From Acidimicrobium ferrooxidans (GTDB taxonomy: Bacteria; Actinomycetota; Geothermincolia; Fen-727; Anoxymicrobiaceae), in NCBI GenBank assembly GCA_020723485.1, contig DYIU01000002.1, positions 653,543 to 717,542 of the forward strand: 64,000 nucleotides of DNA. Reading direction: 5' to 3'. Positions 4,370-25,205 of this stretch are shown in pieces. Each line of letters starts with the position of its first letter. The stretch's first letter is position 1. The notes under the pieces were generated by a model. That model made no database searches. It saw only the letters and a list, made by a program, of their open reading frames with translations, and was not told where the DNA came from. A program made the position numbers and the translations under genes.

Positions 4370-4405
4370 TCCTTGAGTCGGCGGCGGTGTCTTGGAGCTG
4401 ATATC

Positions 4406-5527
4406 TTGAACAGAGTCGAACGCTTCAGGGGCAAAGTCCCCATAGTGGTCATCCTCTATCACAGGGAGGAGGACACGCGAGAAGTCCTCAGCCAGCTGGC
4501 GAAGGTAACTACCGACTACGAACTCATCTTCATCGACAACGGGTTCGATGACGCGGATTACATCCTGGGGCTGAATCCCGCCTCGCACGTCAGAAACGAC
4601 GAGAACGTGGGCATCACCAGGGCCGTCAACCAGGGCCTGGAGATTGCCGATGGACCATACGTCGCAGTCCTGCACAGCGACCTGCTCATCTACGAAGAGG
4701 GGTGGCTCGAGCACATAATCGAGTTCATGGAGCGCCGTCCGAATGTCGGCCTCGTAAGCCTGATCGGGCGGCACTGCATCAAGGAGGACGGCAGCCTGGA
4801 CGAGGAGACCCTGGTGTGCAACCTGCCCGAGTACCAGGATGCTTTTCAGCCGTCCTGGCGCTTCACCGAGATCGCGGCCGCAGACGGCACAGCGCTGGTG
4901 ATGCGCAATCTCGGTTTCCGCGTGGACGAATCCCTGAGCTCTCTCCACTATTACGACATCGACATGTCGATGCAGTACATCTCCGCCGGGTACCGCGTCT
5001 ATAACGCAAACGTCGAGTTGTACCACCTGCGTGAGGAGTACTTCAGGCAGGGAGAGGATTCCGGCGCCGCCAGGACCTCGGGGCGCGAGGAGGACGAGGA
5101 CTACATCGAGGCGCGCTCGAGGTTCCGGGACAAGTGGAGCCACATGCTGCCGATATGCAGGGGATTTATGGACGAGCAGTATTACTACCACAGGGTGGAA
5201 TGGCTGAAGGACCACGCGGCGCGACTCGAGCTGGAATACTCGAAGAGGGGCGAGGAGATAGAACGCGCCAAGGAGTACGTTGGCAGGTTGACGGCCGAGC
5301 TCGACAGGGTCTCCGCCGAGAATCAGCAGAGGGCCGCGGAGATAGACCAGGCGAGGGACAGCATCCGAGGACTCAACGATGAGCTCGCCCTGGCAAGGAG
5401 TCCGTTACCTGATTCACCGCCCGCAGGTGCCTCCATTCTGGAAAGAATTGGATTCTCCCTGCGCACCCGGGGAGTCCGCGCCACCCTGGCGAGCGTGTTA
5501 GGCAGGCTCAAGCCGCGAGTAAAATAG
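4406..5527 (+). CDS. Family 2 glycosyltransferase with coiled-coil tail
   Basis: A 373-residue protein. Residues about 12-210 form a GT-A fold family 2 glycosyltransferase: VVILYHREE, then FIDNGFDD, then VLHSDLLIYEEGW (the metal and nucleotide site region), then ADGTALVMR and HYYDIDMS. Residues about 265-325 are a heptad coiled coil, and the end is a short basic amphipathic tail. The TTG at 4406 is preferred because GGAG lies 8 bases upstream; a TTG at 4373 is possible. It belongs with three related glycosyltransferases in the next 6 kb. The sugar and acceptor are unknown. It converges on the leftward CmcI-like gene with an 18-bp gap. Confidence 0.82.
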   Translation: MNRVERFRGKVPIVVILYHREEDTREVLSQLAKVTTDYELIFIDNGFDDADYILGLNPASHVRNDENVGITRAVNQGLEIADGPYVAVLHSDLLIYEEGWLEHIIEFMERRPNVGLVSLIGRHCIKEDGSLDEETLVCNLPEYQDAFQPSWRFTEIAAADGTALVMRNLGFRVDESLSSLHYYDIDMSMQYISAGYRVYNANVELYHLREEYFRQGEDSGAARTSGREEDEDYIEARSRFRDKWSHMLPICRGFMDEQYYYHRVEWLKDHAARLELEYSKRGEEIERAKEYVGRLTAELDRVSAENQQRAAEIDQARDSIRGLNDELALARSPLPDSPPAGASILERIGFSLRTRGVRATLASVLGRLKPRVK

Positions 5528-5545
5528 TCGTTTGCGGGCGGGAGC

Positions 5546-6250
5546 TCAACGTATCCGTTTCAGAAAGCCTTCTGGGTTGTAAGTGATGATGTAGCGCTCA
5601 CGGGAGCGGTCAACTTCGAAGTCGCTGTTCTCCGCCAGGAATTCCCTTATCGCGGGCAACGGTCCGCCGTCCTGGAAGTCGCCGAACATGCCTTCGCCGG
5701 AATCCGGATGCAGCTCATCGATTATTCCGTCCTCTACGATCGCGTAGCTCCCCACGCTCACGAGCGGTGAATATGCGCGGAGATCTTTCAGGACCTGCGC
5801 CTTGTTGTGGTCGCCGTCGTGAATCAGAAGCACCTTCTTGCCCCTGCATAGTTCCTCGACTCTCTTCACTATCGGCTCCGCCGAGCTGTCTCCCGTGACT
5901 GTCACTATCCTGTCGTGCGCGGCGACGAATGAAGAGCGGTCGGGGTCAATGGTCACCACTATCCCGTTGCCGATGATCTCGAGCATGTCCGCCAGGAACA
6001 GCGCGCTTCCCCCCGTAGCGCTCCCGATCTCGACTACAACATCGGGTCGGACCTCGTGCAGTACCTCCTGGTATATCCACATGTCGAGCGGATTCTTCAG
6101 TGCCATCACGCCCATCCAGGAACAGGTCCCGGACAGCACAATCCTCTGGTGATAGAGTATCCACCGCGCGAGGGTCATCTGGAACTTCTTACTGAATTCA
6201 GCCCTGAAAGGCCGCCTGGAACATGTCAGACGCCTGTAAACACCAGCCAA
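5546..6250 (-). CDS. CmcI-like SAM-dependent methyltransferase/hydroxylase-family protein
   Basis: A 234-residue protein of the CmcI (cephalosporin hydroxylase) family, a Rossmann-fold group that includes sugar O-methyltransferases such as rhamnosyl O-methyltransferase. Diagnostic stretches are VVVEIGSATGGSALFLADML (SAM site), VTIDPD and LLIHDGDHNKAQV (metal/catalytic region), and YAIVEDGIID. The TTG start has AGGAGG about 11 bases upstream. It sits 27 bp behind the methyltransferase-glycosyltransferase fusion on the same strand, so the two are probably one operon. In such loci members methylate sugar hydroxyls; that is the likely role here, by inference. Confidence 0.78.
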   Translation of the reverse strand: MAGVYRRLTCSRRPFRAEFSKKFQMTLARWILYHQRIVLSGTCSWMGVMALKNPLDMWIYQEVLHEVRPDVVVEIGSATGGSALFLADMLEIIGNGIVVTIDPDRSSFVAAHDRIVTVTGDSSAEPIVKRVEELCRGKKVLLIHDGDHNKAQVLKDLRAYSPLVSVGSYAIVEDGIIDELHPDSGEGMFGDFQDGGPLPAIREFLAENSDFEVDRSRERYIITYNPEGFLKRIR

Positions 6251-6277
6251 CAGTCAGTTCACCTCCTGGCGCACCGA

Positions 6278-7999
6278 TCATTTCTTCTTGATGCGCTGAG
6301 CCACACGCCTCGCGGTCGCTGACGCTCCCTCTGTTGCAAGGTGATAAAGGAACTTGCGAACAGGGCCGTCAGGGACGTCAGTGGTTCCCTTCTCACCTTC
6401 ATCCCACGGCGCCGCGGCACTTTGGGCGGAACTCAGCCGGCGTTCAAGCTCCTTGTTCCGCAGTTCGAGTTCTCCCAGGACGCCTTCGACACGTTCGATG
6501 TGAGCCGCCGCTTTGTAGATCTCTTCGGTCTTGGCGTTCGCGTCAGCTTCGACGGCTCGATTGTGAGACTTAAGTTCAGAGTTCTCCTCTGTGAGCTCTT
6601 CAATCCGGCTCCAGGCATATGCTTCGTCCCTGTAGCCGCGGACAATCGGGAGCATGTGTTGCCACTTCCGCCTGAATCTCTCCCTGACAGCCTCGAAGTA
6701 ATCGTCATCATCACCGCCTACAAGCGCAAGGTAACCCTGGTCCGTCCTAGAGCTGTAGTCGACGGTAGCGATGTGCTCGCAGTCGATGCCGACGGCATAT
6801 GCTCTATACCCGGCCTCTATGTACTGCATCGACAGATCGATGTCATAGTAGTGCATTATCCCGAGGGACTCGTCGAGCTGAAGCCCTATGTTTCTCATCA
6901 CGAAAGCAAAGCCGTCGATCGCGGCCACCTCGGTGAAACGCCAGGTTGGCTTGAAACTGCGAGGGAACTTCTCCTGGAGGAACACCGTTGTCTCGAGGTC
7001 CAGGCTGCCGTCCTGCCTGATGCCGTGCCGTCCGCACAGAGAAACCACGCCCACGTCGGGACGGCTCTCCATGAAATCCACCACGTGGTCGAGCCATCCC
7101 TCCTCGAAGACCATTGTGTCATTGTGCAGTACCGCGATATAGGGAGAATCTCCACATTCCGCCAGGCCCTGGTTAACGGCTTTTGTTATCCCCTGGTTGG
7201 TCTCGTTCTTTATCAGCACACGCGGGCTCAGGCTTTCTACGAGCCCCTCGTCTTCAAATCCGTTGTCGACAAGCACCAGGAAGTAGCCGTCTGTCACCCG
7301 CCCGAGCTGCTCGAACATCGCGCGCGTGTGTCCTTCTCGCCCGTACAGGACAACGATTATCGGCACGTCCGCGCGCTCTGACGTCTTCAGGACCGAGTGC
7401 CTTTCCCGGGTGATAGCCGAACTCCGGTAGCCGTCCATCGGCTCGATCACAAAAGAGCCCGCAACCGGAGCCCTTCCACTATCATCAGCATGCTTTCTCG
7501 CCACGCCGAACGAGCTGAGCGGGAACGGGATGTCGTCGACGAGCTCTTCTCCCCCGTCCCAGGTCTCGATGTCCTCGAAACCAGCCTGCCGCATCAGCGC
7601 CTCTAGACCGCTCGGCGTTATCCTCCAGTAGTCGTCCGGGAAATTATGGATATGCATCCTGAACGGTATGCTCACGATGAGCGCCCCGCCGGGTTTGAGA
7701 ATCCGATAAGCTTCCTGGAGCGCCAGCCACGGTTGTCGCACGTGCTCCAGCGTCTCGAGGCAGACCACCGTCCCCACCGATGCCGCGGGAAAATGGCTGT
7801 GTTCCATGTCGTCAACGAGGTCCACACCCGTCCCGGGTCGCAGGTCGCAGCCGATGAATTCGAGCCCGGCGAAATACTCCCTTATGTCTGCGAGCTCCTC
7901 CTGGCCGGGCACCCGGTACGAGCCGAACTCCACAACGGGGCCTTCCAACTCGAACCTCGCAACCTGGTCGCGCAGGAACTTGAGTACTCTCTTCGTCAT
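6278..7999 (-). CDS. Methyltransferase-glycosyltransferase fusion protein
   Basis: A 573-residue two-enzyme protein. Residues about 1-160 are a class I SAM methyltransferase (VVEFGSYRVPGQE, FIGCDLRPG, VVCLETLEHV, RILKPGGALIVSIPF, then HNFPDDYWRITPSG). Residues about 212-420 are a family 2 glycosyltransferase (IIVVLYGREGHTR, VDNGFEDE, VLHNDTMVFEEGW, AIDGFAFVMRN, HYYDIDLSMQY). A coiled coil (about 455-535) and a basic tail (ARRVAQRIKKK) close it. The C-terminal part is a paralogue of the genes at 4406, 8216 and 10506. The fusion suggests that transfer and modification of a glycan are coupled. It is divergent from the radical SAM fusion gene. Confidence 0.85.
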   Translation of the reverse strand: MTKRVLKFLRDQVARFELEGPVVEFGSYRVPGQEELADIREYFAGLEFIGCDLRPGTGVDLVDDMEHSHFPAASVGTVVCLETLEHVRQPWLALQEAYRILKPGGALIVSIPFRMHIHNFPDDYWRITPSGLEALMRQAGFEDIETWDGGEELVDDIPFPLSSFGVARKHADDSGRAPVAGSFVIEPMDGYRSSAITRERHSVLKTSERADVPIIVVLYGREGHTRAMFEQLGRVTDGYFLVLVDNGFEDEGLVESLSPRVLIKNETNQGITKAVNQGLAECGDSPYIAVLHNDTMVFEEGWLDHVVDFMESRPDVGVVSLCGRHGIRQDGSLDLETTVFLQEKFPRSFKPTWRFTEVAAIDGFAFVMRNIGLQLDESLGIMHYYDIDLSMQYIEAGYRAYAVGIDCEHIATVDYSSRTDQGYLALVGGDDDDYFEAVRERFRRKWQHMLPIVRGYRDEAYAWSRIEELTEENSELKSHNRAVEADANAKTEEIYKAAAHIERVEGVLGELELRNKELERRLSSAQSAAAPWDEGEKGTTDVPDGPVRKFLYHLATEGASATARRVAQRIKKK

Positions 8000-8215
8000 T
8001 CGTCTCTACCTCGTCCGGTGTATGTATCCGCCTTCATCGGTCTGGTGGATTAATCCGCAGTCTGCCGTGAAGCCCCTTGGACTCCAAGTGCCTAGGGGAG
8101 TATTGTACCCAACTGGCCCTCGAACTTCGAGGAGCTTATTCGAATCGGCGTCGCGGCGCCTCGCGCCATCAGATGTTCTGCAATAATATTGGCAGACATC
8201 ATCCGAGGCGAGCAT

Positions 8216-10504
8216 ATGAGTGAAACAGTCAAACCCAGGTATCTCAACATGGACATCTCAACACGTTGCCAGCTTTCATGTCCCGCATGCCCGAACGGGC
8301 GAGGCACGCTGGCCGGGCCCGATGTGGGAATCGGGGACATGGAGTTCTCTGATTTCAAGGCTCTGTTAGAGAATAATCCGAACCTCGCCGGAATCGAGAT
8401 CGGCAACTGGGGAGAACCTCTACTCAATCCCGAGCTGGGCAGCTTCCTCGAATTCGCTGACTGTTGCGGCGTCGGCATAATCCTCAATACGAACCTGAAC
8501 CAGAGAAGGAACGGACTGATGGGGTCCATAGTGAAAAACCGGGTACGAGCGATGGTTTGTTCGCTGGACGGCGCCACACAGGAGTCATACGAGACCTACC
8601 GTGTCGGCGGAAACCTCGAGGCGGCGGTGGAGAATGCGGCGGAGATCACGAAGCTCAAGATGGAGATCGGCTCCCCCTTCCCCAGGCTCATCTGGAAGTT
8701 CATCGTCTTCGGACACAACGAGCATGAGATAACTTTGGCCAGGAAGATGGCGAAAGGCCTGGGGATGGAGTTCCAGCTCGCCCTCCCCATCGATCTTGAC
8801 ATCGGTGTAGGTGCGGACATCGAATGCGCATTCTCCCCTCCCCGGAACACCGAACAGCTTAGGAATGAACTGGGTTACACAACATATGAGGAATTCGGAG
8901 AGGTTCTCGGCTTCTATCCGTGGCACGGAGCATGCATACAGCTGTGGGAACAGCCGGTCGTCAACTGGAACGGCGACATGCTGGGGTGCTGCAACTCACA
9001 GAACTCAACAGGAGGCAACGCTTTCAGGGACGGACTGCAGCTGAGTGTCAACACGACCGTAATGCGTCACGCCAGGGCTATGGTCTCCGGTCGCGAGCCG
9101 GACAGAGGGGGAGTCTTCTGCTCACGTTGCACTGTATACAGCCGCATGAACCGAACTGGCAACTGGCTGAAGCTCTCGTGGACGAACCGTACTGCGAACT
9201 TCTTCATCAGGCACTTGGCCACCCCCCATCTGTCCGAGCGATTGGACGCTTTCGTCTGCTCGCACCTGCAGAGAAGGCTGGAGCTCTGGCATTACTGGTA
9301 CATACCGGGCAAATTCTCCCTCGCCGACCTGGGACTCAGGGTGACCAGCGCGGAAGGACCGGATCTCGAGGAAAGTTGCGCATTCAGAACTCCCGAGATG
9401 AAGGAGTCGGACACGCCGCGAACGGAGCGTCATCGTGCGGATATCCCCATCGTAGTCGTGCTCTACCACCGCGAGGAAGAGACGCGCATGATGTTCGAGC
9501 AGCTTGCCCGGGTGACCGACGGCTACTCGTTGATAATTGTCAACAACGGTTTCGACGACTCCGACTTCATCAGGGGACTCAACCCCCTCCATTACATCGA
9601 GAACGAGGAGAACACCGGTGCCATCCGGGGTATCAACCAGGGCCTGGAGCTCGCAGAAGAAGAGTATGCGGCGGTACTGCACAATGACATCCTCATATAC
9701 GAGGAAGGCTGGCTCGACCACATCATCGAGTTCATGGAAAGAAGGGAGGATGTGGGGCTGGTGGGACTGGGGGGCTGGCATTCAGTATCAGCAGGCGGTC
9801 TTCCAACTGGCCACGTGGCGGACGTCGACAGGGAGGGCTGGCGGCCTGGTCAGCCGGTATGGAGGTTTACCGAGGTCGCGGCCATCGATGGGACAGGGTG
9901 GGTGACGCGGAGCGGCGCCGCGGGTCTCGATACGCGATTCGGAGACGACATCCGAACTGCTGCGCTCGATATCTCCCTTCACTGTCGCGAAGAGGGCATG
10001 AAGGTCCACTGTGTGGCGCTCGAGACGAGTCCACTACCGGGCCGCGATGACCCCGTCTCCATGGAAGCCGGGAAGGCCCTGGCCGAGAAATGGAAGCGGC
10101 TCCTGCCCGTTTGCAGAGAGTATGTCGATGAGAAACGGTCACTGGAGGAAATAGAGCGCCTGAGCAAGAGCCGGCGCTACCCGTCCCTGCAAGAGGAGAG
10201 GGCACGGCTGGGAGTGGAGCTCGAGGAGATCGCGATCCGTGCACGACGGCTGGAAACCGAGATTGGTGACAATGCGCCGGAGCTTTCAAGGCTCTCCAGT
10301 ATCGTGGAACAAAGGCGGGCTAGGCCCGCGGGCGGCGCGACAGACGCGAGCGCGGCGCGAGATGAATGCGACTACGATTCGGCGGAAGCCGCGTCTCCTT
10401 CAGGTCTTGCGAGCAGGTTCATCCATCTCGCCAGGACTCATGGTCTTTACTCAGCCGTCAAGAGATCCTTGACCTATGCCAGGAGGAAGGCGGGCAGCCA
10501 GTGA
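8216..10504 (+). CDS. Radical SAM-glycosyltransferase fusion protein
   Basis: A 762-residue fusion. The N-terminal radical SAM domain carries CQLSCPAC (Cys18, Cys22, Cys25) for the [4Fe-4S] cluster, followed by an EIGNWGEPLLNPE stretch. A cysteine-containing segment at about 235-320 (HGACIQLWE, NGDMLGCCNSQ, FCSRC) resembles a SPASM auxiliary-cluster domain. Residues about 410-600 are a family 2 glycosyltransferase with the LHNDILIYEEGW motif, then a coiled coil and basic tail. The ATG at 8216 is chosen for GAGG 7 bases upstream. The glycosyltransferase half contains a perfect copy of 325 bp found in the next gene. The reaction is unknown; radical sugar or peptide modification coupled to glycosyl transfer is an inference. 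Confidence 0.85.
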   Translation: MSETVKPRYLNMDISTRCQLSCPACPNGRGTLAGPDVGIGDMEFSDFKALLENNPNLAGIEIGNWGEPLLNPELGSFLEFADCCGVGIILNTNLNQRRNGLMGSIVKNRVRAMVCSLDGATQESYETYRVGGNLEAAVENAAEITKLKMEIGSPFPRLIWKFIVFGHNEHEITLARKMAKGLGMEFQLALPIDLDIGVGADIECAFSPPRNTEQLRNELGYTTYEEFGEVLGFYPWHGACIQLWEQPVVNWNGDMLGCCNSQNSTGGNAFRDGLQLSVNTTVMRHARAMVSGREPDRGGVFCSRCTVYSRMNRTGNWLKLSWTNRTANFFIRHLATPHLSERLDAFVCSHLQRRLELWHYWYIPGKFSLADLGLRVTSAEGPDLEESCAFRTPEMKESDTPRTERHRADIPIVVVLYHREEETRMMFEQLARVTDGYSLIIVNNGFDDSDFIRGLNPLHYIENEENTGAIRGINQGLELAEEEYAAVLHNDILIYEEGWLDHIIEFMERREDVGLVGLGGWHSVSAGGLPTGHVADVDREGWRPGQPVWRFTEVAAIDGTGWVTRSGAAGLDTRFGDDIRTAALDISLHCREEGMKVHCVALETSPLPGRDDPVSMEAGKALAEKWKRLLPVCREYVDEKRSLEEIERLSKSRRYPSLQEERARLGVELEEIAIRARRLETEIGDNAPELSRLSSIVEQRRARPAGGATDASAARDECDYDSAEAASPSGLASRFIHLARTHGLYSAVKRSLTYARRKAGSQ
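9444..9768 (+). repeat. 325-bp perfect direct repeat, copy 1
   Basis: This stretch is identical, base for base by reading, to 10528-10852, offset 1084 bp. It covers the catalytic N-terminal half of the glycosyltransferase domain in the radical SAM fusion gene. Outside it the two genes diverge at once at both ends. Confidence 0.95.
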
Positions 10505-10505
10505 G

Positions 10506-11507
10506 ATGAGTGCAAGAGATCTGATGGTCCCCATCGTAGTCGTGCTCTACCACCGCGAGGAAGAGACGCGCATGATGTTCGAGCAGCTTGCCCGGGTGAC
10601 CGACGGCTACTCGTTGATAATTGTCAACAACGGTTTCGACGACTCCGACTTCATCAGGGGACTCAACCCCCTCCATTACATCGAGAACGAGGAGAACACC
10701 GGTGCCATCCGGGGTATCAACCAGGGCCTGGAGCTCGCAGAAGAAGAGTATGCGGCGGTACTGCACAATGACATCCTCATATACGAGGAAGGCTGGCTCG
10801 ACCACATCATCGAGTTCATGGAAAGAAGGGAGGATGTGGGGCTGGTGGGACTTCAGGGTTCTCATACCATCAACGATGACGGGCATTTCGACTACGAATC
10901 GAACGTCGCACCCTGCAGAGGTCGGTGCCCGGACAGCCTGAGGCCCACCTGGCGATTTTCGGAAGTTGCGATGATAGACGGCATCGGCTGGGTGATGCGG
11001 AACGCGGGCATCTTCCTCGAGGAAAGTTACGGGATGATGCATTGCTATGACCTGGACTTGTCACTGCGGTACATATCCGCCGGATTCCGTGTCTATGTGA
11101 TGCCGGTCGATTTCGGGCATCTCATCCATGGCTCAAGCGGCGATATCGAACTCGAGAGGTCCTCCCGAGGTCGACAGGACTACCTGGAACGAATAGGCGG
11201 CGATGACGACAGGTATTTCGACAAGGTGACCGAGCAGTTCAAGAGCATCTGGCATGAGATGCTCCCGATTACACGTGGCTTCAGGGACGAGGCTTATGGA
11301 TACCTGAGAGCGGAAGAACTGCGCCGCGAAAGCAGGGCTCTCGAACAAGAGTTGTGTGACGAGATCGCTCGTCAGAAGACGGAAATCGGCAGAGCAACCT
11401 CGTACATCAGTGATCTCAGCAGGGAAGCGAAGCGGCAGCGCGACGAAATCGAGCGTCTTCGCTTCCTTCTAGGGAATGCGTGTGAACCCGGCGACGGACC
11501 GGGCTAG
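10506..11507 (+). CDS. Family 2 glycosyltransferase with coiled-coil tail
   Basis: A 333-residue protein with the same plan as the gene at 4406: family 2 glycosyltransferase (about residues 7-210; VVVLYHREE, VNNGFDD, VLHNDILIYEEGW, MIDGIGWVMRN, CYDLDLSLRY), a LLPI-TRGFRDE motif shared with its paralogues, and a coiled coil (about 270-325). It lacks the basic tail of the others. Its ATG starts one base after the stop of the radical SAM fusion gene, with AGGAGG about 19 bases upstream inside that gene, so translation is probably coupled. The first half is identical to the upstream gene while the second half is quite different, pointing to recent conversion or duplication. Confidence 0.83.
   Translation: MSARDLMVPIVVVLYHREEETRMMFEQLARVTDGYSLIIVNNGFDDSDFIRGLNPLHYIENEENTGAIRGINQGLELAEEEYAAVLHNDILIYEEGWLDHIIEFMERREDVGLVGLQGSHTINDDGHFDYESNVAPCRGRCPDSLRPTWRFSEVAMIDGIGWVMRNAGIFLEESYGMMHCYDLDLSLRYISAGFRVYVMPVDFGHLIHGSSGDIELERSSRGRQDYLERIGGDDDRYFDKVTEQFKSIWHEMLPITRGFRDEAYGYLRAEELRRESRALEQELCDEIARQKTEIGRATSYISDLSREAKRQRDEIERLRFLLGNACEPGDGPG
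10528..10852 (+). repeat. 325-bp perfect direct repeat, copy 2
   Basis: Second copy of the repeat at 9444-9768. It is in the same codon phase in both genes, so recombination between copies would delete 1084 bp and leave an in-frame radical SAM-glycosyltransferase fusion with a different acceptor half. Confidence 0.95.
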
Positions 11508-12858: not shown

Positions 12859-12893
12859 ACGCAACAATGGGGTCAGGTCAATTTGTTGCGTTT
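12857..12893. repeat. GGGGTCAG hairpin between convergent genes
   Basis: AAACGCAACA (12857-12866) and TGTTGCGTTT (12884-12893) form a perfect 10-bp stem around a loop with GGGGTCAGGTC (12869-12879). The TAA stops of both convergent genes overlap the outer ends of the stem. It may serve as a shared transcription end. Confidence 0.75.
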
Positions 12894-13957
12894 TAGGGTC
12901 CAGGAAGCGTGTTCCTTCCTTTCTTGCGTTTCCGGTCTGGCTTGAGACCCAGGAACACCGCCCCGGTGACCCACCACTGCCGCAGCAACAGGAACGATAG
13001 GGCAAGCGGCAGCGTCACGCCGGTTATGAACGACACCAGCACCTCCAGCCACCCGCTTCCGAACGTGAGCTGAAGCATCAGGAAATGTGAGACGTAGATG
13101 TCCATGGTCACAAGGCCGAACCAGGCCAAAGTCTCCCTACCCCGTCCCTGCTTCAAGGCCCTGATGACGCCGACGCACAGCAGGATGCCGAGGATGGCCA
13201 TCGAGTATCGGATAACATACGCTGCGGGCGTCTTAAAGAGGTCCACCAGTGAGAATGGGAACTTGTAAGGGTCGATGCGCTCGTAGTAGTAGAGGAGCGT
13301 GAACAGGAGCAGGAAGACCGCCGAAGGCCCCGCCAGTACGGTGTTGACCTTCTCGCGGCCGAACGCCTCGAGCCGCGACCTGTGCTTGTGCGCGAGGTAA
13401 CCCAGGGCGAAGAAAGCGAAGAAGTACTTGACCTGCATAACCCCGAGGTCGTCAAACGGCACGAAGTTCACTGCCACGAAGATAGCCCCGAGCGAGATCT
13501 CCCCCATCCAGCTGTGTCTCCTCTCCAGGTATGCCGCCGGGATGAGGAGCAGGGAGCAGAGGAACAGCGTCGGCAGGAACCACAGCCCTATCGCGGGATG
13601 CAGGATGTTGTCCTTGAGCGACGACAGGAACGTCGCCGGCCAGTGGTGTACGTAACGGTTCACCAGGTAGTAGACGGGTATCCACGCGAAGAACGGCGGG
13701 AGGAGTCGCAGGGCGCGGTCGCGCACTCTGACGCGCTTCCCGAAGAGCACGTACCCGCTGATGAGGAAGAACAGCGGCATGTGGAAAGAGTATATGAACT
13801 TGCTCACGTAGAGCTCGAGGTTGTAAGCGGGAGCGACCAGAAGGTTCTCGGCGTTGGCGATGGCGTGACCGAGCACGACGAGCAGAATAGAAAATCCCCT
13901 GAGCGCGTCGACAGCGGTGTCCCTGCCGGGCGGGACTCCCACCCTGGGGACCTTCAA
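12893..13957 (-). CDS. Membrane acyltransferase, acyltransferase-3 family
   Basis: A 354-residue integral membrane protein with about ten hydrophobic segments. The signature VDALRGFSILLVVLGHA (catalytic His) and the FIYSFHMPLFFLISGYVLF stretch identify the acyltransferase-3 (OafA/WecH-like) family, which moves acetyl or succinyl groups onto cell-surface sugars. The basic C-terminal tail is cytoplasmic. The start is uncertain: TTG at 13957 is listed, with a GTG five codons later as an alternative. It may decorate the glycan made by the glycosyltransferase region, but there is no direct linkage. Confidence 0.85.
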   Translation of the reverse strand: MKVPRVGVPPGRDTAVDALRGFSILLVVLGHAIANAENLLVAPAYNLELYVSKFIYSFHMPLFFLISGYVLFGKRVRVRDRALRLLPPFFAWIPVYYLVNRYVHHWPATFLSSLKDNILHPAIGLWFLPTLFLCSLLLIPAAYLERRHSWMGEISLGAIFVAVNFVPFDDLGVMQVKYFFAFFALGYLAHKHRSRLEAFGREKVNTVLAGPSAVFLLLFTLLYYYERIDPYKFPFSLVDLFKTPAAYVIRYSMAILGILLCVGVIRALKQGRGRETLAWFGLVTMDIYVSHFLMLQLTFGSGWLEVLVSFITGVTLPLALSFLLLRQWWVTGAVFLGLKPDRKRKKGRNTLPGP

Positions 13958-24429: not shown

Positions 24430-25107
24430 ACGAGACGCTACGACTGCCTCCGGATCAAAGCAGTAAAACTGAGGGAAGGTGGGCACACCCTTACAGAGAT
24501 CTGCAATCGTCTGCACATCTGCAAATCCACCGCTTGGTATTGGATCAAAGATGTCGAGATGAAGAAACCAATTGCCTTTCTACTAAAGACCTCTCGCAGC
24601 AATAAGAATGCGGCTCTCAAAGCAGCTCAAGCGCATAGAAGGAAGAGCCTTGCCGTTCATAACGAATTCGCAGACAGCGCAAGGTCACAATGGAGCGAGG
24701 AATTGAAGGACGACCACGTCTTCCGGTTATTCCTCATGCTCTATGTTGCGGAGGGAATAAGAAAGGACAGGGGCAGCTTTGGAATTACCAACTCTGACCC
24801 AGATATCGTCCTGTTCGCGTTTAGAATGATGAAACGTATCAATATCCACCATAAGCCCGTGAGAATCGACCTGAATCTGACAGAGACGTTTGATGCTGAT
24901 GACGCTCGTCGCTTCTGGACTAAAACATTGAGGGCGAACGAAGATATTCATGTTCACTTAAGAAAGGAATACGGAAGCCTTAAGGGGAGAAACTGGGTAT
25001 CAAGGTACGGCATTGTACGCCTTCGCATCTACGATACATATGTAAAGACAATGGTCGATGTTTGGATTGACCTCTTCAAGCAAGACATTCTGGCAAAAAC
25101 AGCTTGA
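24430..25107 (+). CDS. HTH plus LAGLIDADG-like protein, start codon lost or ACG
   Basis: A 225-codon frame. Codons 5-45 encode a helix-turn-helix (KAVKLREGGHTLTEICNRL then KSTAWYWIKDVEM); residues about 95-215 resemble a LAGLIDADG-type domain (MLYVAEGIRKDRGSFGITNSD then FAFRMMKRI). Similar HTH-LAGLIDADG proteins occur singly in many bacteria with unknown role, possibly as degenerate homing endonucleases. AAGGAG at 24418-24423 is spaced 6 bases from ACG at 24430, where ATG is expected; the first internal ATG at 24559 would cut off the HTH. GC content is visibly lower than its neighbours. It ends 22 bp from the 3' end of a tRNA gene. Confidence 0.6.
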   Translation, partial: TRRYDCLRIKAVKLREGGHTLTEICNRLHICKSTAWYWIKDVEMKKPIAFLLKTSRSNKNAALKAAQAHRRKSLAVHNEFADSARSQWSEELKDDHVFRLFLMLYVAEGIRKDRGSFGITNSDPDIVLFAFRMMKRINIHHKPVRIDLNLTETFDADDARRFWTKTLRANEDIHVHLRKEYGSLKGRNWVSRYGIVRLRIYDTYVKTMVDVWIDLFKQDILAKTA

Positions 25108-25129
25108 CGCGCTGAACGCCAGAAAGAAT

Positions 25130-25205
25130 TGGTGGGCCCAGCAGGACTCGAACCTGCGACACGAAGATTATGAGTCTTCTGCTCTGCCAACTGAGCTATG
25201 GGCCC
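25130..25205 (-). tRNA. tRNA-Met (anticodon CAT)
   Basis: A 76-base cloverleaf with encoded CCA. The acceptor GGGCCCA pairs with TGGGCCC, the D-stem is GCTC/GAGC, the anticodon stem GAAGA/TCTTC encloses CTCATAA, and the T-arm is GCAGG-TTCGAGT-CCTGC. It looks like elongator methionine tRNA; an isoleucine tRNA with modified CAT cannot be excluded from sequence alone. Confidence 0.95.

Follow-up and report, generated by a model that had tools for sequence, protein, structure and literature searches.

The window analysed in this study is a stretch of 64,000 nucleotides (G000:C5:653543-717542) from a 3.36-Mb actinobacterial source genome, hereafter G000, which consists of 11 contigs. Genes were called from open reading frames and Pfam matches. 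Four related family 2 glycosyltransferase (GT2) genes and one gene for a CmcI-like enzyme lie within 7.1 kb (Table 1), and all five could be confirmed in this manner, in agreement with the initial annotation of the sequence. The glycosyltransferase domains of GT1, MT-GT2 and radical SAM-GT2 share 51-62% identity with the domain of GT4, far above chance, and all four proteins match the GT2 models (PF00535/PF13712). The assignment of one methyltransferase (MT) fusion, one radical SAM/SPASM-like fusion and two unfused glycosyltransferases, made in the same annotation, is borne out by Pfam and by the cysteine pattern; as it had also stated, the cluster has no flippase, polymerase or S-layer gene next to it. 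In MT-GT2, an N-terminal class I SAM methyltransferase is followed by the GT2 domain, a predicted long helix or coiled coil and a basic tail. Unlike the other three glycosyltransferase proteins of the cluster, GT4 has no basic tail.

Table 1. Coordinates of the cluster genes and of associated features within the window.
Feature	Position	Strand	Evidence or remark
GT1, stand-alone GT2	4373-5527	+	PF00535 5e-16, PF13712 3e-13
GT1 start	TTG 4373 or 4406	+	alternative starts
GT1 C-terminal basic tail	5429-5524	+	profile E=6e-12; preceded by predicted coiled coil
CmcI/rhamnosyl O-methyltransferase-like SAM methyltransferase	5546-6250	-	PF04989 4.5e-47
MT-GT2 fusion	6278-7999	-	PF08241 3.7e-10, PF13712 1.5e-10
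MT-GT2 basic tail	6281-6367	-	profile E=7e-12
Radical SAM/twitch-GT2 fusion (radical SAM-GT2)	8189-10504	+	PF00535 1.9e-10; cysteine layout
Radical SAM-GT2 start	TTG 8189 or ATG 8216	+	alternative starts
GT domain of radical SAM-GT2	9443-10162	+	
First copy of 325-bp exact direct repeat (donor-binding half of GT domain)	9444-9768	+	
Ala592 codon of radical SAM-GT2	9962-9964	+	alignments; Asp in other window copies and most relatives
Radical SAM-GT2 basic tail	10400-10495	+	profile E=3e-11
GT4, stand-alone GT2	10476-11507	+	PF13712 1e-14; predicted coiled coil
GT4 start	ATG 10476 or ATG 10506	+	10506 is one base past the stop of the preceding gene
Second copy of 325-bp exact direct repeat	10528-10852	+	offset 1084 bp
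Membrane acyltransferase	12893-13957	-	PF01757; three genes past GT4

Third-position GC (GC3) is lower in the cluster (0.71-0.80) than in most of the large genes around it (0.82-0.91), a difference that agrees with a variable region. Elsewhere in the window, a GC3-poor open reading frame (0.53) at 24559-25205 adjoins the sole tRNA gene (Met) and may be an inserted element. The PF01757 acyltransferase is possibly an associated glycan O-acylation gene: its relatives flank the second CmcI gene of genome G001, on each side at a distance of about 10 kb, and the CmcI contig of genome G005 ends with the start of another one. Modelled with AlphaFold from alignments of six sequences, MT-GT2 and radical SAM-GT2 reached mean pLDDT values of 50 and 37; conclusions on domain contacts and on the active-site decay described below were therefore drawn from alignments only. 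The long helix of MT-GT2 (residues 452-527) is predicted in the low-confidence model only.

The glycosyltransferase subfamily and its methyltransferase partners

Of the motifs said by the initial annotation to unite the four glycosyltransferases, two, HYYD/CYDLDLS and LPIxRGFxDE, are broken in radical SAM-GT2, where AALDIS and LLPVCREYVDE are read in their place. The HxD (DxD-like) motif is kept in the four copies of the window. In GT2 enzymes generally, the Asp of YDxDxS is part of the 'ED' motif and serves as the catalytic base; it is present in GT1, MT-GT2 and GT4 and absent from radical SAM-GT2, and the alignment displays an altered residue at this position in the copies of genome G007 as well.

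The searches covered Actinomycetota, plasmids and phage-type contigs. Among 397 sampled Actinomycetota genomes, strong matches to the subfamily are confined to the source order, where 8 of the 13 genomes carry them, and the next matches (E about 1e-23) fall in one other family (f24). A contig scan performed with two very strict peptides returned as sole match a contig of the MAG fen_680 with the content of G003 contig C52, and none of the viral contigs matched. The G001 locus reads MT-GT2 with an extra C-terminal domain>, <CmcI, <MT-GT2, <MT, and a G001 protein of the former type contains the GT domain nearest to GT1 (61%); the match of a G001 fusion's C-terminal domain to sulfotransferase is sub-threshold (E 0.03). 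The G003 locus reads MT-GT2>, phosphoesterase>, <CmcI (with a coiled-coil-like extension), GT2>. In G007 there are two paralogous GT2-GT4-GT2-GT2 polyproteins (L054, L055), both about 1,300 residues long, and a DUF5719 surface protein follows each of them; G008 encodes one such polyprotein, also beside a DUF5719 protein. The copies of G005, G010 and G011 are partial or broken, the G011 remnant carrying an internal stop. Copies of the subfamily are located near a tRNA-Thr gene in G001 (L053:2247-2322) and near a tmRNA gene in G011 (L058:9865-10208), as at integration hotspots; no tRNA or tmRNA gene was found near the loci of G000 or G003.

The methyltransferase modules form one family (46-61% identity). 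Since MT-GT2 fusions are scattered over different branches of the GT tree, for several of which support is weak, the simplest history would start from an MT-GT ancestor whose N-terminal module was later lost or exchanged. MT-GT2 is 54% identical to its G001 counterpart over 517 aa. The order GT> <CmcI <MT-GT2 is common to G000 and G001, which belong to different genera, at protein identities of 54-63%, and MT-GT2, CmcI and another glycosyltransferase of the subfamily are adjacent in three genera (G000, G001 and G003). The neighbour tabulation suggested by the initial annotation succeeded for these three genes and failed for radical SAM-GT2, which was found in G000 only; the trio of radical SAM-GT2, MT-GT2 and CmcI is not a conserved system.

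The CmcI-like enzyme passes the gathering score of PF04989 (160.9 versus 23.2 bits) and matches PDB entry 2br3 (1.2e-9), its residues D145, E173 and D174 being aligned with D160, E186 and D187 of CmcI, the metal-binding residues of that enzyme. It scores 112.5 bits with the NCBIfam equivalog NF045824 (rhamnosyl O-methyltransferase), whose cut-off is 400, and was therefore not filed under that function. A literature search on CmcI in this connection yielded nothing pertinent. CmcI genes occur in 4 of the 13 genomes of the order, all among the 8 that carry the GT subfamily; this co-occurrence (4/8 versus 0/5) is statistically weak on its own over 13 genomes. Further CmcI genes (G001 C37 and G005 C115) have methyltransferases, acetyltransferase-like proteins and large membrane proteins as neighbours. 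By visual inspection, the CmcI genes of G005 and G001 C37 adjoin multi-spanning proteins of 1035-1106 aa resembling GT-C arabinofuranosyltransferases (L106, L107).

The radical SAM-GT2 fusion and the exact repeat

The pattern CxxxCxxC ... C-x12-G-x4-C ... CxxC is intact in radical SAM-GT2, with the radical SAM cysteines at 27/31/34 and the twitch cysteines at 249/267/311/314. Pfam scores are under the cut-offs for both Radical_SAM (0.012) and SPASM (0.003). The protein combines CxxxCxxC with one four-cysteine auxiliary-cluster set and has no full SPASM set, an arrangement of the twitch type as defined in PMC9012708. Relatives of the module sharing this cysteine layout were found in G107 (39%), G284 (30%) and G217 (31%) and in a second G000 protein on contig C3. 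Those of G107, G284 and G217 sit, largely as judged by eye, among glycosyltransferases, flippase-like proteins or flagellar genes. The second G000 protein (G000:C3:90020-90889; L079:10021-10890) lies in a GC3-poor patch together with GT2, TylF-like and other methyltransferase genes.

The complete fusion was found in G000 alone upon survey of 59 relatives, 297 phylum genomes (by module search) and 72,556 plasmid records. Plasmid-borne fusions of this kind were considered and rejected, as none of the 21 matching plasmid records covers 80% of the protein; among the plasmid matches listed, all fall on the radical SAM part. A PDB sequence search with the module gave no significant match, and a literature search for radical SAM-GT fusions in surface glycans gave nothing pertinent. 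The module was probably gained by lateral transfer. Because the twitch enzyme BtrN, which has a four-cysteine auxiliary cluster, oxidises a cyclitol (PMC9012708), oxidation of a sugar is a reasonable guess for its activity.

A further feature, absent from the initial annotation, is the direct repeat shared by radical SAM-GT2 and GT4. Identity is exact over 325 bp with sharp ends, and the repeated segment covers the part of the GT domain that binds the donor, its N-terminal half. In their C-terminal halves the two proteins are only 29% identical, and about 25 residues of GT4 have no counterpart in radical SAM-GT2. Ala592 likely represents the loss of the catalytic base, and with the Asp of the ED motif gone, the GT domain of the fusion has probably lost its transferase activity. 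A frameshift was rejected as the source of the divergent half, homology to WRFTEVAAIDG, LDIS and LLPVCREYVDE remaining in frame. A permutation introduced by assembly across the repeat was also dismissed, by the reasoning that two direct repeats permit only one order keeping all segments. Recombination between the two copies would remove 1084 bp and produce an in-frame radical SAM-GT4 fusion.

The basic tail and the ABC exporter locus

GT1, MT-GT2 and radical SAM-GT2 share a basic C-terminal tail of 33 residues (profile E 6e-12 to 3e-11). The seven tails from which the profile was built match it by construction, and the independent evidence resides in another protein family and in an empty outgroup. 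Outside the subfamily (E<=1e-3), the tail occurs on one orthologous family of about 460-530 aa (48-66% identity), present in seven genomes (G000, G001, G003, G004, G006, G010 and G011) and glycosyltransferase-like in view of weak GT-B matches (E 0.002-0.004). G005 yields one further match, an open frame of 94 aa (7e-4), and no match was obtained in the outgroup of 46 genomes outside the order.

In G000, G001, G003, G006 and G011, the tail-bearing glycosyltransferase-like protein is encoded on the contig that carries Wzt_C, at a distance of 5-22 kb. Wzt_C is found in 12 of the 13 genomes of the order. G000 encodes a Wzm/Wzt ABC exporter (Wzt_C plus ABC-2) far apart from the cluster, the exporter locus being on contig C11 and the cluster on C5; proteins resembling the Wzx flippase were also recognized by eye elsewhere in this genome. 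As the tail is common to the cluster proteins and to a protein of the Wzt locus, it ties the cluster to the ABC-export pathway. In G007, the subfamily member fused to GT2-GT4-GT2 adjoins DUF5719 and GT2 genes whose G000 counterparts are located about 15 kb from Wzt.

Interpretation and comparison with known systems

On balance, and with moderate confidence, the cluster is best explained as a set of accessory enzymes decorating or capping a methylated surface glycan exported by the ABC transporter. The initial annotation had proposed a dedicated locus that chemically edits a surface or protein-linked glycan. Editing of a surface glycan is still the best reading, given the recurrence of MT-GT2, CmcI and glycosyltransferase genes, the restriction of CmcI to genomes that carry the subfamily and the loci occupied by the relatives of the radical SAM module. 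The word dedicated is doubtful, since the tail connects the cluster proteins to the main ABC-exported glycan pathway, which is encoded elsewhere. In the scheme we propose, GT1, MT-GT2 and GT4 would be membrane-associated and would transfer sugars, in the cytoplasm, to a glycan carried on a lipid, and the methyltransferase module and the CmcI-like enzyme would place O-methyl groups on sugar hydroxyls located at the end of the chain or close to it. The basic tail may dock the proteins on the membrane complex of the exporter locus, with the coiled coil as a spacer. The radical SAM/twitch module would carry out the radical oxidation or epimerisation of a sugar, and the GT domain attached to it may have a positioning role. 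In the nearest systems whose working is understood, methylation forms a cap that marks the chain for Wzm/Wzt and is read by the carbohydrate-binding domain of Wzt (PMC9445017, PMC11231755). The combination of a methyltransferase fusion, a GT2 domain, a coiled coil and a tail shared with the Wzt locus would fit an analogous decorating or capping role. Counting against this explanation are the absence of a WbdD-type kinase, the short coiled coils, the tailless GT4 and the distant exporter.

Glycosylation of a surface protein, whereby a secreted protein of the S-layer or DUF5719 type would receive a short methylated glycan from the glycosyltransferases, appears unlikely. It draws on the 801-aa DUF5719 protein with weak S-layer matches that adjoins a subfamily member in G007 and G008, and on another protein with a similar-looking secreted repeat (by eye) near a member in G005. 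However, no gene for such a protein lies beside the cluster in G000, G001 C42 or G003, and the DUF5719 gene belongs to the ABC-export locus in G000 and G001. Flagellin (PF00669) is absent from G000, and flagellin glycosylation is excluded as far as this model detects. A different view holds the cluster to be a decaying expansion, in which one glycosyltransferase was repeatedly duplicated and converted in an uncoordinated manner with the radical SAM fusion as a by-product; the identical tract, the decayed half-domain of radical SAM-GT2, the changed ED motif of the G007 copies and the G011 remnant with its internal stop all speak for it. We nevertheless consider it distinctly unlikely in view of the order GT>, <CmcI, <MT-GT2 kept in another genus at 54-63% identity, of the long open reading frames with coding bias and of the conserved tail.

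Mycofactocin biosynthesis combines a radical SAM enzyme with a glycosyltransferase, and weak similarity to the MftF and MftC models could point to a small-molecule glycoside pathway of the mycofactocin or antibiotic type, acting on a peptide or an aminocyclitol. This would be very improbable: the two NCBIfam equivalog models score 27.8 of 280 bits and 20.6 of 265 bits, far under their cut-offs, so that a mycofactocin cluster was rejected, no precursor peptide or other pathway gene was recognised, and the relatives of the radical SAM module occupy surface-glycan loci. A more elaborate proposal, rather unlikely as a whole, regards radical SAM-GT2 as a two-module enzyme whose disabled glycosyltransferase, refreshed by gene conversion from its neighbour, would be a sugar-nucleotide or glycan-binding adaptor feeding the radical SAM/twitch site. 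The subfamily would then be a chassis composed of glycosyltransferase, coiled coil and tail, with an N-terminal slot swapped among methyltransferase, radical SAM and other glycosyltransferase modules.

The locus introduces an actinobacterial glycosyltransferase subfamily, so far found in a single order, whose N-terminal module is exchangeable and whose C-terminal tail recurs on a protein of the ABC-exporter locus. It would allow testing whether this lineage methyl-caps its ABC-exported glycans, and radical SAM-GT2, if active, would provide a handle on the radical chemistry of surface sugars, a poorly charted field.

Among known systems, the cluster is close to the coiled-coil chain-terminating methyltransferases of ABC-exported O-antigens, such as WbdD (E. 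coli O9a) and ORF6 (Klebsiella O7): a methyltransferase module lies on a protein for which a coiled coil is tentatively predicted, glycosyltransferase modules lie on that protein or on its partners, and the genome encodes an exporter of the Wzt_C type. It differs from them by its module order (MT-GT2-coiled coil-basic tail), its short coiled coil and its phylum, and MT-GT2 has no kinase match in Pfam. The CmcI-like enzyme shares with the CmcI/rhamnosyl O-methyltransferase family (PF04989) a full-length match and the metal-site residues, but is far under the equivalog cut-off. Radical SAM-GT2 is akin to BtrN, a twitch radical SAM cyclitol dehydrogenase, by its one radical SAM motif and one four-cysteine auxiliary-cluster motif, and differs by its GT2 fusion. 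The radical SAM/SPASM proteins of G107 C66 and G284 C33 (39% and 30% identity) are similar in cysteine layout and glycan-locus neighbours, yet stand alone, whereas the G000 protein is fused to a glycosyltransferase. The parts of the cluster are of known kinds; what is new is their arrangement, which is restricted to one order, and not the kind of system.
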